A stretch of 33,928 bases of DNA, taken from Terriglobia bacterium. Lineage in GTDB: Bacteria; Acidobacteriota; UBA6911. Both the position numbers and the translations under genes were made by a program. The stretch lies in the NCBI GenBank assembly GCA_020072565.1, contig JAIQGI010000023.1:1-33928 (forward strand), read 5' to 3'. The notes beneath the pieces are model-generated. The model saw nothing but the letters and a program-made list of their open reading frames with translations. It ran no database searches and had not been told where the DNA came from. Positions 15,457 through 33,712 of this stretch are shown piece after piece. Each line of letters opens with the position of its first letter. Positions within the stretch are counted from its first letter, which is position 1.

Positions 15457-18400
15457 TCACAGATTTCCCTGAACATCGGCGGTCTTGCGGAGTGCCGTTG
15501 CCTTGACAAATGAACTCTGTATGTTTTCGAGGGTGAAGTGGCGCGCCACATAAGTGCGCTCTCGCTTTGATATCTCCCTGAGGCGAAAGTCGTCGTTATA
15601 CAGGCAGATAATCGCTTCCGCCAAAGGCACCCGGTGTTGGACTGGATCGAGGATTTCCTCTACCCCAGGCATTCCTTCCACACCCCATTCCGTGCTTACC
15701 ACGGGGACTCCATGGGCCATGGCCTCCACGGTTTTCCCTTTTACGCCGGCACCATAGCGGAGCGGTATCACTACCAGCCTCGAGGTACGGTAGAGCTCTG
15801 TGAGTCGCTCGTCGCTGACGAATCCGAGCACTTTCACGTCGTCCGATGCCAGCGCCAGTATCTCCCGCGGAGGGCCTGACCCGGCAATGTTGAAGACCAC
15901 GCCGGGCAACTGTTTTTGAACCGCCGGCCAGATCTCACCTACGAACCACAGCACCCCGTCTCCGTTGGGCGGGTGGGAGAAACCGCCGACAAATAGAATG
16001 CCGTTACGCTCCGAAGTGTTGAACTCCCACTCCGGGTCCACATCAACCGAATAAGGGGGAACATAGAGCACATCCACAGCCGGGCACAGGCCGCGGATGA
16101 TGCCGACCTCGATGTCGCTGCAGGAGAAGATCGCATCCATCCGGTTCATGAGCCGCTGCTCTTCTGTCTTCCCTTTCTCGGCGCGCACCTTCAGGGAAGG
16201 ATCGTTCTGCAGCCCAGCCAATTGCAGCTCGCGCAGGTAGTGCAGGTCGTGGACATAGTAGAAAATGCGCGCTTTGGTGTGGGCCCGGACGGCGCGAAGG
16301 TATTTGGGCGCTATATGGGGCCGGCTCAAGAAGACATAGTCCAACCAACGTCCGTTCTCGGCAAGCCACTCCGGCCAATGGTCGGCAAACCACGGGCCGG
16401 TCAACACCTCGACACCGGCTTGCTGGAGGATCTCGGTATAGGGCTGGTGCGGATAGAAGTTGTCTCCCATGAACTTCACGTTCATCCCCATTTTGAGGAA
16501 TGCCTGCACAAAGGACCAGATGGTGCGACTCCCGGCATCCCTGTCGAAATGGGGGACGTAGTGATCGATGATCAGGATCGATTTGCGTCCGGCTGAGCGG
16601 TCGCGGGCCTGGAAAATGTTGGTCCCGTTCGGGAAATGTTTCGCCAGCACATCAGCCCACTTCTCTTTCAGAATCCCGGTGTTACTGATTTGATGCGCCT
16701 TGGTGCGCTGAGAGACATTAGTTCCGTGGGAAACGCCCTCGAAGTGGACCACCACCGACAGGGGTTGATAGACGACCTTGAAGCCCCGCTTCCGCACCTC
16801 GAAGGCCAAATCCGAGTCCTCGCAATAAGCCGGGACGTACTGATCATCGAATCCCCCGATCTCATTCCAGAGGTCGCGCCTGATCATGAAGCTTGCACCC
16901 GACACGTAATCGACTTCTTTGACATAGTTGAAGGCGGGCAGGGAGGCATCCTGGCCGCGGCCGAAGTTCCAGCCGGTGGCGTCGGCCCAGATGATCCCGC
17001 CGGCCTCCTGAATCCGGCCATCGGGGAAGATTAACTTCGAGCCGACCATACCGGCGGCGGGGTCCCGGTCGAGCACCGAAACCAGAGCCTGAATTGCGCC
17101 CGGCTGGAGTTCGGTGTCGTTGTTGAGGAAGTAGAGGTATCGGGCCCGGGCACGGCCGGCGGCCCAGTTGCAGTTACGCAAAAACCCGCGATTTTTCCCG
17201 TCGCGCAAAATGTCGATCCCGATCAGCAGTTCCTCAGCCTGCACGGTTGTATCCGTGGAGCCGTCATCTGCCAGGATTACTTCGCAGGCCACTCCGGCCA
17301 TGGTCTGCTGGATACTCTTCAGGCATCGATAGGTGTGAACCCACTGGTTGAACGCCGGGATGATGACCGATACTTTGGGGTGTTCTTCCCTGATAAACTC
17401 GATGCGGGCAAATTCAGCGGGCCTGTCATTACCGAGGAGATCATCCCTGGAGGCCTGACTCCCGCTCTCCCGGGCAATTGCTGAACCATTTTCCCTATTG
17501 TGAGGCGCGCTCGGAGCTTTATCGACGGACCACGGCGATTTTCCTCGAATCAACTGCACCAGGGCCCTCACGCCGGCCTTCGACAAGCTGAAAATCCGCC
17601 TTAAAAACCGCCTGCGGCCGCTTCCAAGGGGCAACAGGGCGTCTCGTAATCGCCAATAGCGGGAGGCGACCTTCCAGAAGTCGCTCTGTTTGATGAGCTC
17701 CAGTTCCGTCCGCAACAAAGCCAGCTCGGCTTCCCTGCTTTTAATGATGTTTAACTGAGACTGATTCTGGGCATTGAGTATCGTGAGCCTTGCGTCGAAA
17801 GCCTCAGCCTCACCTTTGTAATAATTGAGTGCTTTGCCAATGCTGTCGATATGCTGTTCAAGCGACAGAGCCCACGAGTTCTTCGATGCCACCTCATCTT
17901 GAAGTTCGAGGATCCGTTCCCGCTTTCCTTCGAGGTCTTGTTCAAGCGACGAAGCCCATGAGTTCTTTGCCTCTACGTCCTGTTGAAGTTCGCGGATCCG
18001 CTCCCACAATCTCTCCAACTTCTGTTCCTGGTCAATTACGACCGAAGAAATATCAACTTTGTCCACAAACTCCGTGGACCCGCACACTGCCACGACATAT
18101 TTGGGAGAGAAACGGGCACGGTCCGAAAGCCTCAGGTTCTCCAGACGCCGGGAGACGGGCTTTTGGAGAGCTGACGAGACGAACCAACTCTGCCCGAAAA
18201 GGATCACTCGCGGGAAAGTCCGACTGAGAAAGGACTGGAATTCATCGACATAGAATTCCTTTTTGTGATACCGGTTGTGCTGATTGGCATCGTCGGAATA
18301 AACGGCCTTGTTGGGGGTCGAGATGACAAGCAGTCCTTCTCTCTTCAGTACACGCTGCGCCTCACGCAAAAATGCGGCCTGAAGTTGTGGTTCCAGATGC

Positions 18401-18726
18401 TCGATCACCTCGAAGGAAACCACTACGTCGAAGGTGCCGTCTTCAAAAGGCAAAGCGTCCACCGATCCCACCTGAAATTCCAGATTCTGCCGCCCGTAGG
18501 TGGCGCGGGCATGTTCGACGGCATCTCGAGAGATATCGATGCCCACTACCCGGGCAGCGGTCTCAGCCATTAAGTGGACGCCGTACCCCTCGCCGCTTCC
18601 GGCGTCGAGTACGATTTTCCCCCGGACGAGGTCTGTGACAGAGTGGTATCTCTGCTGGTGCTCGACCGCAATCTCGTCGAGAGGATCGGCTTGTTGGGGA
18701 ATAAACCGTTCACCGGAGCAATCCAC
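15457..18726 (-). CDS. Three-module methyltransferase / coiled coil / GT2 / GT4 glycan-assembly protein
   Basis: A 1089-aa protein. Residues about 20-215 are a class I SAM methyltransferase with motif I VLDAGSGEGYG, acidic VVGIDIS, and VVSFEVIEHLEP. About 230-345 is a coiled coil that contains a near-perfect duplication of about 28 residues (ERIRELQQDVEAKNSWASSL, then ERILELQDEVASKNSWALSL). About 450-695 is a GT2 glycosyltransferase with VSVIIPAFNQ, LADDGSTD, FLNNDTEL and YCEDSDLAFEVRKRGF. About 715-1075 is a GT4 with FVGGFSHPPNGDGV and GVKGKTVEAMAHGVPVVSTEWG. By analogy with chain-length-controlling proteins that join a methyltransferase and a coiled-coil ruler, it could extend and cap or modify a glycan; this is inference. 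GGAGG lies 5 nt before the GTG at 18726, chosen over the TTG at 18741. It heads the leftward arm, upstream of hddA. Confidence 0.88.
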   Translation of the reverse strand: MDCSGERFIPQQADPLDEIAVEHQQRYHSVTDLVRGKIVLDAGSGEGYGVHLMAETAARVVGIDISRDAVEHARATYGRQNLEFQVGSVDALPFEDGTFDVVVSFEVIEHLEPQLQAAFLREAQRVLKREGLLVISTPNKAVYSDDANQHNRYHKKEFYVDEFQSFLSRTFPRVILFGQSWFVSSALQKPVSRRLENLRLSDRARFSPKYVVAVCGSTEFVDKVDISSVVIDQEQKLERLWERIRELQQDVEAKNSWASSLEQDLEGKRERILELQDEVASKNSWALSLEQHIDSIGKALNYYKGEAEAFDARLTILNAQNQSQLNIIKSREAELALLRTELELIKQSDFWKVASRYWRLRDALLPLGSGRRRFLRRIFSLSKAGVRALVQLIRGKSPWSVDKAPSAPHNRENGSAIARESGSQASRDDLLGNDRPAEFARIEFIREEHPKVSVIIPAFNQWVHTYRCLKSIQQTMAGVACEVILADDGSTDTTVQAEELLIGIDILRDGKNRGFLRNCNWAAGRARARYLYFLNNDTELQPGAIQALVSVLDRDPAAGMVGSKLIFPDGRIQEAGGIIWADATGWNFGRGQDASLPAFNYVKEVDYVSGASFMIRRDLWNEIGGFDDQYVPAYCEDSDLAFEVRKRGFKVVYQPLSVVVHFEGVSHGTNVSQRTKAHQISNTGILKEKWADVLAKHFPNGTNIFQARDRSAGRKSILIIDHYVPHFDRDAGSRTIWSFVQAFLKMGMNVKFMGDNFYPHQPYTEILQQAGVEVLTGPWFADHWPEWLAENGRWLDYVFLSRPHIAPKYLRAVRAHTKARIFYYVHDLHYLRELQLAGLQNDPSLKVRAEKGKTEEQRLMNRMDAIFSCSDIEVGIIRGLCPAVDVLYVPPYSVDVDPEWEFNTSERNGILFVGGFSHPPNGDGVLWFVGEIWPAVQKQLPGVVFNIAGSGPPREILALASDDVKVLGFVSDERLTELYRTSRLVVIPLRYGAGVKGKTVEAMAHGVPVVSTEWGVEGMPGVEEILDPVQHRVPLAEAIICLYNDDFRLREISKRERTYVARHFTLENIQSSFVKATALRKTADVQGNL

Positions 18727-18768
18727 TGCTGCCTCCAACAAACAAAAATCGCCCGACCCTTAACGCCC

Positions 18769-24403: not shown

Positions 24404-25704
24404 TGCCCGTCATCCAGGTCCAACACCTGTCCAAGAAGTACGCGATCTACGACCGGCCCTGGGACAAGCTGCGCGAAGTGCTTCACCTGGCGCGCGGGCC
24501 GCGGCACCGGGAATTCTGGGCGCTCGAGGACGTCTCCTTCGAAGTCGAAAAAGGCCAGACTCTCGGCATCATCGGCCAGAACGGTTCGGGGAAAAGCACG
24601 CTCCTGCAAATCCTGGCGGGAATCATGCGCCAGACCCGGGGTGATTGCTTCGTTACCGGAAAGGTCTCTGCCCTGCTGGAGCTGGGCTCGGGATTTAATC
24701 CGGAGTTCACGGGTCGGGAAAACGTCTTCATGAACGGCGCCATCCTGGGAATGGACAAACGCCAGATGCAGCAACGCTTTGATGCGATCGCCAGGTTTGC
24801 CGAGATCGGCGACTTCATGGAGCAGCCGGTCAAGACTTACTCGAGCGGCATGTTCATGCGGCTGGCATTCGCGGTGGCGGTCAATGTCGATCCCGAGATC
24901 CTGCTGGTGGACGAGGCCCTCGCCGTCGGCGACCTGATCTTCCAGCATCGCTGCATGCACCGGATGAATCAGTTGCGCTCCAGCGGAAAAACAACCGTTC
25001 TGGTAACGCATGATCTGGCAGCCGTGACCAAGTTCTGTGATCGGGCGCTGCTCCTCGATGCCGGCCGCCTGCTCGAGGCCGGGCCGCCCGAAAAGGTCGT
25101 GAACAAGTATCGAGTCCTGATCTTCGAGCGCATGCGCCGCTACGGTGGCTCGGAGGGTGATGGAAGAGAATCGACGGAAGGGGCCGTTATCACCGCGAGC
25201 GGAGAAATGCCGGTCGTGCGCACGATTCCGAACATCGATCACCGGTTCGGAAATGGAAAGGCCAGGGTGATCGGCATTGAGCTGCTTGATGCGAAAGGGA
25301 GCCCGACCAGGGAGGTTTTCGGCGGCGAAACCGTCCTGCTGCGGATCTCGGCGGAATTCCTGCAGGATGTTCCGCGGCCCATTCTGGGCTACACCTTGCG
25401 CGACCGGCTCGGCGTCGAGATCTCCGCCTGCAACACAAGCTATGCGGGTACCCTTCTGCCTGCCGCACGCGGAGGCCAGATCTATACGAGCGACTTTCAG
25501 ATCCGTCTGCCACGCATGGCCGCCGGAGGCTACTCCTTTGCCCCCGCTGTCGCCGAGGGGGACATCCAGAAGCACGACATGTGCGATTGGATCGACAACG
25601 CCCTTGTGTTCAGTTTGCAGGGCGATGAACTGGTCTACGGCATGCTCAAGATGGACGTCGACGTGCGCACTTACTCCTCAGACGCAACGGAGAGCGGAGA
25701 GTGA
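24403..25704 (+). CDS. wzt: Polysaccharide ABC exporter ATPase with C-terminal glycan-recognition domain (Wzt-like)
   Basis: A 433-aa protein. Residues 1-245 are an ABC ATPase: Walker A GQNGSGKST at 58-66, a glycan-exporter-type segment ALLELGSGFNPEFTGRENV at 90-108, the signature TYSSGMFMRLAF at 145-156, Walker B ILLVDE at 166-171 and the switch His in LVTHD at about 203. After a charged linker (246-270), residues about 275-425 form a beta-rich domain (GIELLDAKG, VLLRISAEF, YTLRDRLGVEI) of the Wzt C-terminal type. In O-antigen systems this domain binds the non-reducing end cap of the glycan, which implies a terminal modification. The methyltransferase of the 15457-18726 protein is the natural candidate in this locus (inference). 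The start ATG overlaps the permease stop by 1 nt. Confidence 0.92.
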   Translation: MPVIQVQHLSKKYAIYDRPWDKLREVLHLARGPRHREFWALEDVSFEVEKGQTLGIIGQNGSGKSTLLQILAGIMRQTRGDCFVTGKVSALLELGSGFNPEFTGRENVFMNGAILGMDKRQMQQRFDAIARFAEIGDFMEQPVKTYSSGMFMRLAFAVAVNVDPEILLVDEALAVGDLIFQHRCMHRMNQLRSSGKTTVLVTHDLAAVTKFCDRALLLDAGRLLEAGPPEKVVNKYRVLIFERMRRYGGSEGDGRESTEGAVITASGEMPVVRTIPNIDHRFGNGKARVIGIELLDAKGSPTREVFGGETVLLRISAEFLQDVPRPILGYTLRDRLGVEISACNTSYAGTLLPAARGGQIYTSDFQIRLPRMAAGGYSFAPAVAEGDIQKHDMCDWIDNALVFSLQGDELVYGMLKMDVDVRTYSSDATESGE

Positions 25705-28106
25705 ACGAAAAACCACGAAACGCACAAAACGCACGAGGAACTTTTCGTGTGTTTCGTGGTTTGATCCTTGCCGTTATGACTTTGCTGCTGACGCCCTTGC
25801 TCGCGTTGCTGGCAGCAGCTTTGCTTTTGCTCAATCTCATCGGGCGGACCGCACGCGCCGGCAGGAAACCGGAGCCCGCCGATGCCAAGCCGTTGTCCGG
25901 GCTCGCTTCCATCGTCATCCTCAACTGGAACGGGAGGGATCTGCTCGCGCAAGGGCTCCCTTCCATTGTTGAGGCGGTGCGGCGTGACGGACGACCGCAT
26001 GAAATCCTGGTCGTGGATAACGGCAGCAGCGATGGCTCGCGAGAGTACATCCATGCCTCATTCCCGCAGGTGCGCCTCCTCGAGCTGCCTGAAAACCTGG
26101 GATTTGCGCGCGGGAACAATGCCGGCGTGCGGGCCGCGCGTCACGACATCGTCGTCCTGCTCAACAACGACATGGTGGTCGACCCCGGATTTCTCCGCCC
26201 GCTGCTCGACGGCTTCGGGCCGGACACTTTCGCGGTATCGAGCCTCATCCATCACCAGGACCCATCGACGCGGCGGGAAGAGACCGGCATGACCACCGCG
26301 GTATTCCGCCGGGGCTTCATCGATTTCGCCCACCGCGATGTCGATGAGCAGGAACTGCTCCGGCCCTGCTATCCTGCCTTCTGGGCAGGCGGCGGATCCT
26401 CTGCCTTCCACCGCGAGCGCTTCCTGATGCTGGGCGGATTTCAGGAAATCTTCTCGCCCGCCTACGTGGAAGACACCGACCTCTCCTTTCGGGCATGGAA
26501 GGCCGGCTGGGAGGTGCTGTTTGCTCCCGGCTCCATCGTCTATCACAAACACCGCGCCACCAGCAGCCGGCGCTTTGCCCCGGCGGAGCTGCAAACCCTG
26601 ATCCAGCGCAATCAGTTCCTCTTCCTCTGGAAGAACATTCAAAGCTGGCCGCTGCTGCTTGCTCACTCCACATTTCTCCCCTGGAACTGCTATCGCCTGG
26701 CTCGCGATCACGGCCTGATTGTGTGGCGCAGCCTGCTCCAGGCCGTTGTCAGGCTCCCGGCGCTGGTCCGTGCCAGGCTGCGCGCAGCCTTCCGCGAGGC
26801 GCGCGCGGACACGGAGGTGTTTAAGCTCCTGGCTATGCCCGCGCTCTATTTCGCCCGCTTGCGCTCCGCGCACCGGATTCAGCCGCGGGAGCCGTCACGC
26901 GTTCTTTGGATGACCGCCTATCTCCCGTATCTGGGACGGCATGCCGGCGCCGGCCGCATGTATCATCTGCTCCGGCGCATCACACGGCGTTACCGCGTCA
27001 CGTTGCTCACCTTCATCGAGGGAGAAGAGGAAAAGCAGTTCCTGCCGGAGCTGGAGTCCATGTGCGAAATGGTGATCGCCATGCCGCGCCTCGCGCCGCC
27101 GCGTTGGCAGCCTTTCGCCTATGAGCCTTTCAGAGAGTTCCTCATCCCGCAGATGGAGCAGGCCATGCAGCTTTGCCTCGAGAGCCGGGACTTCGACCTG
27201 ATCCAGCTGGAATACACGCAGATGGCTGGATACGCACAAAAGGCACTCGGTATTCCTACGCTGCTGACCAAGCACGAAGTTGATTTCGCCGCCTGGGCGC
27301 GGCGCGCGCGAGTGGAATCGAATCCGCTGCTCAAGCTGCGCTGGTTTTACAACTACCTTCAGGTTCTCGACCGCGAGGTGGCGCTGCAGCACCGCGTCGA
27401 CGCTGCGATCTGCATGACCGATCCCGACATGCAGGAGCTGAGACGATTCTGCCCGTCGGCCCCGGTCCATGTGATCAATACCGGCGTCGACCTGGACTAC
27501 TTCCAGCCTCCCGAACAGCCGGCATCGGGGGGCCGGCTGGTGTTTGTCGGCGCCTTCCAGCATGAGCCCAATACCGATGCCATGGTTTACTTTTGCAGCC
27601 AGGTTCTGCCTTTGCTGCGAGCGAAGGTCTCGGGCACCGAACTTTTCATCATCGGCAGCAATCCATCTCCGCGAATCCTCTCCTTGGCAGATATCCCTGG
27701 AGTTCGAGTAACCGGCTTTGTGCCGGACATCAGGCCGTTCATGGCGTCCGGTTCAGTTTATGTCGTACCCCTGCGCCTGGGCGTGGGCATTCGCGGCAAG
27801 ATCCTGGAGGCCTGGGGCATGGCACTGCCGGTGGTGGCCACATCGGTTGCATGTGCCGGCCTGCGTTATCGGGATGGAGAGAACCTCATGGTCGCCGACA
27901 CCGCCGAGGACTTCGCCGCGCGTGTGGCTGCACTGCTCAAGGACCCTGCCCGTCGCGAACGCATGGGACGCGAGGGCCGGAAAGTTGCCGAGCAGTTCTA
28001 TGGTTGGGATGCCGTCGCCTCCCAGCTTGACGGCCTTTATCAGACTTACATGGCGCAGGCGCCGCAAAACGGCATTGAAGTGCGGCGTCCTGGCGCCGCT
28101 TTATAA
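25701..28106 (+). CDS. Membrane-anchored GT2-GT4 fusion glycosyltransferase
   Basis: An 801-aa protein. A membrane helix at about 20-48 is followed by a GT2 domain (about 65-330) with IVILNWNGRD, ILVVDNGSSDGS, NLGFARGNNAG, LLNNDMVV and AYVEDTDLSFRAWKAGWEV. A linker follows, then a GT4 domain (about 415-795) with LVFVGAFQHEPNTDAMVYF and GVGIRGKILEAWGMALPVVAT. Two sugar transfers in one chain are implied. The GT4 half resembles the GT4 half of the 15457-18726 protein. The GTG at 25701 overlaps the wzt stop (GTGA), but the first ~20 residues (KPRNAQNARGTFRVFRG) are encoded by the palindrome at 25710-25762. A GTG at 25749, with GAGGAA 8 nt upstream, or the ATG at 25776 may be the true start. Confidence 0.87.
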   Translation: MNEKPRNAQNARGTFRVFRGLILAVMTLLLTPLLALLAAALLLLNLIGRTARAGRKPEPADAKPLSGLASIVILNWNGRDLLAQGLPSIVEAVRRDGRPHEILVVDNGSSDGSREYIHASFPQVRLLELPENLGFARGNNAGVRAARHDIVVLLNNDMVVDPGFLRPLLDGFGPDTFAVSSLIHHQDPSTRREETGMTTAVFRRGFIDFAHRDVDEQELLRPCYPAFWAGGGSSAFHRERFLMLGGFQEIFSPAYVEDTDLSFRAWKAGWEVLFAPGSIVYHKHRATSSRRFAPAELQTLIQRNQFLFLWKNIQSWPLLLAHSTFLPWNCYRLARDHGLIVWRSLLQAVVRLPALVRARLRAAFREARADTEVFKLLAMPALYFARLRSAHRIQPREPSRVLWMTAYLPYLGRHAGAGRMYHLLRRITRRYRVTLLTFIEGEEEKQFLPELESMCEMVIAMPRLAPPRWQPFAYEPFREFLIPQMEQAMQLCLESRDFDLIQLEYTQMAGYAQKALGIPTLLTKHEVDFAAWARRARVESNPLLKLRWFYNYLQVLDREVALQHRVDAAICMTDPDMQELRRFCPSAPVHVINTGVDLDYFQPPEQPASGGRLVFVGAFQHEPNTDAMVYFCSQVLPLLRAKVSGTELFIIGSNPSPRILSLADIPGVRVTGFVPDIRPFMASGSVYVVPLRLGVGIRGKILEAWGMALPVVATSVACAGLRYRDGENLMVADTAEDFAARVAALLKDPARRERMGREGRKVAEQFYGWDAVASQLDGLYQTYMAQAPQNGIEVRRPGAAL
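25710..25762. repeat. Palindrome with 9-bp periodic arms (CACGAAACG type), inside a coding start
   Basis: The left arm 25710-25731 and right arm 25741-25762 match at 19 of 22 positions as reverse complements, with a 9-nt loop. The units advance in 9-bp steps (CACGAAACG, CACAAAACG, CACGAGG). It is the same family as the element at 29486-29524 and lies wholly inside the open frame at the start of the GT2-GT4 gene. Confidence 0.85.
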
Positions 28107-32643: not shown

Positions 32644-32660
32644 TGTAAAGGGATCTTACA
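32644..32660. promoter_or_regulatory. Palindrome TGTAA-N7-TTACA, distal
   Basis: TGTAAAGGGATCTTACA. It shares outer half-sites with the second palindrome 88 bp downstream (about eight helical turns, centre to centre). It lies about 215 bp upstream of the GG-N10-GC element. Confidence 0.45.
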
Positions 32661-32731
32661 TGCATCCAGGTACGTTAACTCACGCCCGTACAACACCTTA
32701 ATGCAATAATTTATCAATTTGCCGAGTTGAG

Positions 32732-32747
32732 TGTAAGAGAACTTACA
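32732..32747. promoter_or_regulatory. Palindrome TGTAAG-N4-CTTACA, proximal
   Basis: A perfect 6-bp inverted repeat, about 110-125 bp upstream of the candidate sigma-54 element, within the usual distance of activator sites for sigma-54 enhancer-binding proteins. Confidence 0.5.
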
Positions 32748-32856
32748 TTCTCACGTGCAGTGCGGCAGTCATTTCCTGAACAGTTTTCAAGTTGGCGCGA
32801 CGCAAGATCCACGATTTCAGTAATTTACGTTTGTTGTCATTGTTGTCCTCGACATT

Positions 32857-32872
32857 TGGACCTGAAAATGCT
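32857..32872 (+). promoter_or_regulatory. Candidate sigma-54 (-24/-12) promoter of the PEP-CTERM gene
   Basis: TGGACCTGAAAATGCT keeps the invariant GG and GC exactly 10 nt apart, and matches TGG, C6 and TGCW of TGGCACG-N4-TTGCW. A start near 32883 would leave a leader of about 44 nt with AGAAAGG before the ATG. Exosortase/PEP-CTERM systems are known to be linked with RpoN and PrsK/PrsR regulators, which supports the reading. Confidence 0.45.
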
Positions 32873-32926
32873 TTTAGGCGCATGAGAGGAATTGCATCCT
32901 CGAGTTGTCGAGAAAGGGTCATAAGC

Positions 32927-33712
32927 ATGAAACGAATCCTAGCTCTCATGTCGCTGTTGATGCTGATGATAGCTGCGCATGCGACAGCGGACACGATCTA
33001 TCTTGATCCAGCGACTCTACATCTGGGGCCCGGAGCAGGCACCCATTGTGCCCAAGGATGTGCCGGAGATCCCAATTCAATCGGCTTGAACCGCTTGGAC
33101 ATTTTTCAGAATCAGGGTGGCGCGGATTTCCTGGTAAATCCGCTCTTGTTGATCCTGGCAGTGCCCAACGCGACAAATCCGAATCTGTTCAGCTCCAGCT
33201 CGATCTCCAGCGTAAGTGCGTACAATCCTTATAGCAGCTATCCGGGTGGATTCTCCTCCGGAAGCGCCACGTTTGGATACGCCGGCGGGGCTTATGGATG
33301 GTCTGGGAGCGGATATAACGGGAGCATGACCACAGGGGAGGTCTATGGCTTCCTGGGCTTGAATTCACCGCACGATAACTCGAACAACTTTGGCAACTTT
33401 GCGGGCACCGATTCAAGTCTGTTCGGCATTACTGCCACCGGATACGGGATCTATGTATTTGGTTTAACCACGGCTCTTGGCGCACAGGGCATAGTAGATG
33501 TGCAATTCTCCTCCAATTTGCCGCTTGGTACGATCGCAGCCGCATACGGCGAGAGCATTAAGAAAAATAACAGCATCACAATCTACGACAATCCCTACAC
33601 GGAAGCCGGAGTCGTCGGTGGGCCACCGCAGTTGCCGGAACCGAGCACTCTTTTGCTGCTTGGTACCGGCCTCGCCACGCTCGGCCTCTGGCGCTGGAAG
33701 AGAACGCGCTGA
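32927..33712 (+). CDS. PEP-CTERM sorting-domain exported protein
   Basis: A 261-aa protein. A signal peptide (MKRILALMSLLMLMIAAHATA, cleavage probably after AHA or ATA) is followed by a Ser/Gly/Asn/Tyr-rich beta-type exported region with one Cys pair (HCAQGCAG). The C-terminal sorting signal is LPEPSTLLLLGTGLATLGLW followed by RWKRTR: the PEP motif, a membrane helix and a basic tail. Exosortase would cleave at this signal and hand the protein to the cell surface or matrix. No exosortase is in the window. The ATG at 32927 was chosen because the signal peptide begins there; a 45-residue upstream extension is not signal-like. Its place after a polysaccharide locus agrees with the known pairing of PEP-CTERM proteins with exopolysaccharide. 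Confidence 0.9.
   Translation: MKRILALMSLLMLMIAAHATADTIYLDPATLHLGPGAGTHCAQGCAGDPNSIGLNRLDIFQNQGGADFLVNPLLLILAVPNATNPNLFSSSSISSVSAYNPYSSYPGGFSSGSATFGYAGGAYGWSGSGYNGSMTTGEVYGFLGLNSPHDNSNNFGNFAGTDSSLFGITATGYGIYVFGLTTALGAQGIVDVQFSSNLPLGTIAAAYGESIKKNNSITIYDNPYTEAGVVGGPPQLPEPSTLLLLGTGLATLGLWRWKRTR

Follow-up and report, generated by a model that had tools for sequence, protein, structure and literature searches.

The region upstream of a PEP-CTERM protein gene in a Terriglobia bacterium contig (JAIQGI010000023.1) is very probably the enhancer and promoter of a gene controlled by PrsR and sigma-54, with PrsR as the predicted binder of its paired boxes. The element belongs to a known kind, the PEP-CTERM box of Haft et al. 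(2006), rather than being the site of a new regulator; what appears to be newly seen is that it occurs in Acidobacteriota, is habitually duplicated, stands farther from the promoter and shows a measured helical phasing. This reading draws on features read directly from the DNA: boxes and a promoter element that recur, helically phased, in a genome that also holds rpoN, prsR, prsK-like and xrtA genes. The window referred to below is the whole stretch analyzed, 33,928 nucleotides in length.

Table 1. Features upstream of and within the window's PEP-CTERM gene, and other boxed promoters of the same genome (G000).
Feature	Position	Strand	Box pair (bp)	Proximal box-to-GG gap (bp)	Basis or remark
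Distal PEP-CTERM box, predicted PrsR site, TGTAAAGGGATCTTACA, N7	32644-32660	+			exact palindrome; 18.5-bit match to 17-bp motif
Proximal PEP-CTERM box, TGTAAGAGAACTTACA, N6, 16 bp	32732-32747	+	88	110	exact palindrome; 88 bp from distal box
Sigma-54 -24/-12 element, TTGGACCTGAAAATGCTTTT	32856-32875; GG 32858-32859, GC 32870-32871	+			sigma-54 profile rank
Possible ribosome-binding site, AGAAAGGG, 8 bases 5' of ATG	32911-32918	+			read from sequence
PEP-CTERM protein gene, 261 aa, N-terminal signal peptide-like stretch	32927-33712	+			ORF, translation, PF07589, TIGR02595
PEP-CTERM sorting domain, PEPSTLLLLGTGLATLGLWRWKR	33635-33703	+			TIGR02595, 25.7 bits
Intact PEP-CTERM gene	C7:276146		88	99	
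Intact PEP-CTERM gene	C7:259850		90	110	
C34 promoter (L209), boxes TGTCGGCGCCGTTTACA and TGTCGGAGTCTTTTACA, then TGGCCCCCGAATTGC	C34:36939-37093		89		

In Proteobacteria, a 17-nt motif 1 ending in TTTACA, sometimes repeated (in R. rubrum), was found to precede a sigma-54 motif 2 with a spacer of 62.8 nt on average (range 32-92), and the two precede 99 of the 167 PEP-CTERM genes of Proteobacteria; the motifs were stated to be found only in Proteobacteria, and motif 1 was predicted to be the target of PrsR (Haft et al. 2006; PMC1569441). RpoN dependence and a mapped -24/-12 start site have since been described for a PEP-CTERM gene, pepA of Aquincola tertiaricarbonis; in its available part, the report remarks on a predicted enhancer upstream and describes this proteobacterial promoter without a box pair or phasing (PMC9850573). 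In the open-access literature, no earlier account of sigma-54 with PEP-CTERM in Acidobacteria was found, and a prior description elsewhere is possible.

The two TGTAA-N6/7-TTACA palindromes of the original prediction were both found upstream of the window's gene. Their starts are 88 bp apart, or 8.4 turns at 10.5 bp per turn, in line with the eight or so turns proposed, and the distances from the ends of the proximal and distal boxes down to the GG of the sigma-54 element are 110 and 197 bp, close to the expected 115 and 205 bp. The GG and GC themselves are 69 and 55 bp 5' of the start codon, within the 55-70 bp predicted. The gene start given earlier, 32929, is out of frame and had to be moved two bases back to the ATG. 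Both boxes end in CTTACA and the proximal one is one base under the 17-bp norm; the distal box is the top match to the 17-bp motif in the window, its runner-up reaching 6.0 bits. Transcription would be expected to start near position 32883. The encoded cell-surface protein exceeds the cut-offs of PF07589 (Pfam) and TIGR02595 (TIGRFAM), has the C-terminal PEP motif, hydrophobic helix and basic tail of PEP-CTERM proteins, and is accompanied by an exosortase in the genome. It follows a glycosyltransferase/polysaccharide (ABC) export cluster, and an NCBIfam scan of the neighboring window genes tested detected no prsK or prsR among them. Elsewhere in the window, a 1094-aa fused protein (15457-18741, minus strand) combines a methyltransferase with two glycosyltransferase-like domains, and an 801-aa one (25701-28106, plus strand) carries two glycosyltransferase-like domains, one half resembling, below the cut-off, the PEP-CTERM/XrtA glycosyltransferase TIGR03087.

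GG-N10-GC means little by itself in this window, which holds 535 copies. Among all of them, the element between box and start codon ranks first by a sigma-54 profile trained on about 50 promoter sites from this genome and related ones, the element itself being one of these sites. Downstream of the boxes this profile recovered TTGG and TTGCTT; the window element matches the consensus at 8 of 12 positions, and its -12 part reads ATGC rather than TTGC. The exact palindrome occurs at four places in the whole 7.46-Mb genome, so that two within 100 bp are not due to chance. A reversed-pattern control gave two, and the palindrome is therefore not enriched overall; it is the positions that carry the weight. 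Two of the four are those of the window, a third lies 167 bp ahead of another PEP-CTERM gene, on contig C7, and the fourth is inside a gene taken, from its translated sequence, to be pfkA.

Lack of recurrence before other PEP-CTERM genes had been named beforehand as grounds for abandoning the prediction. The prediction survived this test: each of the three intact PEP-CTERM genes of the genome is preceded by two boxes 88-90 bp apart and then a -24/-12 element, and the remaining PEP-CTERM matches are fragments or weak. A genome search for the pair returned these three loci and one on contig C34 (Table 1), where the boxed gene encodes a secreted HExxHxxG metalloprotease without PEP-CTERM tail (NF038122-like, below cut-off). 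In a genome of the same genus, a similar metalloprotease gene (L196, G001:C535) is likewise preceded by paired boxes, 102 bp apart, and by a -24/-12 element. These boxed genes without a tail suggest that the regulon extends past PEP-CTERM genes. A search of the genome for pairs spaced about 97-127 bp gave two matches against one in the control. The genome's strongest PEP-CTERM match, an open frame of 45 aa (L009, G000:C87:3923-3997), has no upstream box and may be a broken gene, the preceding sequence being transposase-like by eye.

A matrix derived from the regions upstream of 90 acidobacterial PEP-CTERM genes describes the box as a 17-bp TGT[AC][AG][AG]-N5-TTTACA, often asymmetric (TGTCGG...TTTACA). 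The form originally suggested for the search, TGTAAG-N4-CTTACA, was too narrow. Because these 90 regions also served for training, the counts are best judged against the reversed control: at more than 9 bits and on both strands, a box precedes 58 of the 90 genes versus 9 in the control, and two or more boxes precede 51 of 90 versus none. About one-third of the genes have no box. Across 60 genomes, 45 promoter-plus-box matches were listed versus 3 for the reversed pattern; several of those outside the PrsR-bearing family look like chance. Applied as an independent check to five proteobacterial genomes with PEP-CTERM matches, the fixed acidobacterial matrix found single boxes before 16 of 59 genes (control 1, one strand), mostly in Undibacterium and Plasticicumulans genomes; the gaps were shorter, 70 bp on average, and none of the boxes was paired. 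Re-training on the regions upstream of the proteobacterial genes pulled the matrix toward AT-rich sequence, and the result was not used. Because only five proteobacterial genomes were sampled, and a repeat in R. rubrum is already on record, pairing is provisionally regarded as an acidobacterial habit.

Spacing was analyzed in 49 promoter clusters, obtained after merging similar promoters, of which 43 have a gap below 150 bp. Gaps from the proximal box to GG fall at 54, 68, 75-80, 88, 96-103, 108-113, 119-123 and 130-133 bp. They fit a period of 11.1 bp best (R 0.65), a fit reached by 0 of 5000 jittered sets under a null that assumes independent promoters. Pair distances range from 77 to 105 bp, mostly 88-93 and 98-102 bp, with a similar period (R 0.60; 0 of 5000 jittered sets), and the window's gap and pair distance fit both periodicities. 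Given the period of about 11 bp, the helix face of the box relative to the promoter appears to be constrained.

The genome contains a single copy of rpoN, whose absence would likewise have told against the prediction, and two prsR genes above the TIGR02915 cut-off (607 and 583 bits). That on C7 has a PrsK-like kinase gene upstream and exosortase A (XrtA, over cut-off) downstream, and two boxed genes are found 12 to 28 kb away from it; that on C44 is flanked by a PrsK-like kinase gene upstream and, downstream, by the gene of a PrsT-like TPR protein. The PrsK matches are partial (287 and 240 bits against a cut-off of 300), the gene being cut in these loci. Together these genes lend support to the RpoN and PrsK/PrsR part of the original prediction, with PrsR as the presumed binder. 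Every named relative sharing at least 63% identity with the C7 PrsR comes from an acidobacterial MAG, which places the organism almost certainly in Acidobacteriota. On C44, some 6.5 kb away from the second prsR, there is a short PEP-CTERM-like tail behind a reading frame that looks like an exosortase type (L013, G000:C44:54066-54125).

On this basis, the kinase PrsK would phosphorylate the NtrC-type activator PrsR, dimers of which would occupy both 17-bp boxes. The pair could aid assembly of the PrsR ATPase ring, presumably through cooperativity. Looping of the DNA between box and promoter would then let PrsR reach sigma-54 RNA polymerase 110 bp downstream on the right helix face and open the promoter. 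The PEP-CTERM protein would be exported and afterward processed by exosortase A.

Like the proteobacterial box, the acidobacterial one is a 17-nt motif ending in TTTACA (CTTACA in the window), upstream of a -24/-12 element and before single PEP-CTERM genes, in genomes with PrsR, PrsK and exosortase (Haft et al. 2006). It differs in its acidobacterial host, in usually coming as two boxes 77-105 bp apart, in a proximal box that mostly stands 96-133 bp ahead of the promoter, and in being symmetric in many cases (TGTAAA...TTTACA). The window's spacer exceeds the 32-92 nt of Proteobacteria; this is a published range and not a functional requirement, so the long spacer marks a variant and does not argue against membership. 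Two activator sites before a sigma-54 promoter are also the arrangement of NtrC-type paired enhancers such as that of glnA. However, the motif and regulon are others, and classic NtrC site pairs are closer together than the 88-102 bp or so of the acidobacterial pair.

Many NtrC-type activators bind TGT-N10/11-ACA-like sites, and more than 20 activators of this type in the genome match the PrsR model strongly, only two of them above its cut-off. A different NtrC/Fis-type activator might thus bind real boxes at a real sigma-54 promoter, which is considered unlikely: in Proteobacteria, the profile of the box matches PrsR, PrsK and PrsT exactly (PMC1569441), and one prsR of the genome adjoins xrtA near two boxed genes. 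The same alternative could point to three box-bearing genomes, G001 (same genus), G005 and G011 (family), in which no PrsR orthologue was detected. These drafts are 81-92% complete, and incompleteness most simply accounts for the missing gene; in G012, a PrsR missed at first search was found split across two contig ends (82% identity).

The TyrR box, TGTAAA-N6-TTTACA, is an 18-bp site resembling the palindromes, and this, with the modest consensus match of the window's sigma-54 element, could favor an unrelated dimeric regulator (TyrR- or CRP-like, for example) beside an incidental GG-N10-GC. That seems very unlikely: the acidobacterial consensus has N5 and 17 bp, about 50 promoters have sigma-54 elements at phased distances behind the boxes, and no sigma-70-like promoter was found in the region. 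The distal box begins just 32 bp past the stop codon of the upstream glycosyltransferase gene, as a terminator or RNA hairpin of that gene might; however, no terminator-like site or Rfam match was found in the region, the arms amount to five AT-rich pairs and unrelated genes have these boxes upstream too, so that this origin is scarcely credible. Chance palindromes beside a chance GG-N10-GC would agree with a genome count close to that of the control, yet three of the four lie less than 300 bp from PEP-CTERM starts with a conserved pair spacing, and the strong box enrichment in relatives together with the gap periodicity refutes this extremely improbable reading.

If the region is indeed a PrsR/sigma-54 enhancer and promoter, a cis-regulatory code known in Proteobacteria only by prediction would be carried into a second phylum. 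Together, the 17-bp matrix, the pairing and the 11-bp helical rule would allow members of the PEP-CTERM regulon, those without a tail included, to be recognized from sequence, and the phased gaps of about 45 natural promoters constitute a data set on activator-to-sigma-54 geometry in cells.

TGTCGG-type boxes are commoner at the distal position and TGTAAA-type boxes at the proximal one, a weak trend (24:9 versus 13:18; Fisher P 0.02, uncorrected for multiple looks). Acidobacteriota could conceivably have a heterotypic enhancer in which asymmetric and symmetric boxes are read differently, perhaps by the two PrsR copies of this genome, the promoter acting as a two-input switch. This is unlikely, and genomes with one detected PrsR yet both box types speak against it. 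In other upstream regions (L119, L125, L126), boxes stand just 19-21 bp apart, or about two helical turns, rather than 88-102 bp. At L200 and L213 (G008:C16, G009:C129), a conserved 88-bp box pair and a sigma-54-like element (gap 109) have no obvious gene directly after them, and a TPR protein is encoded about 700 bp downstream of the L200 pair.
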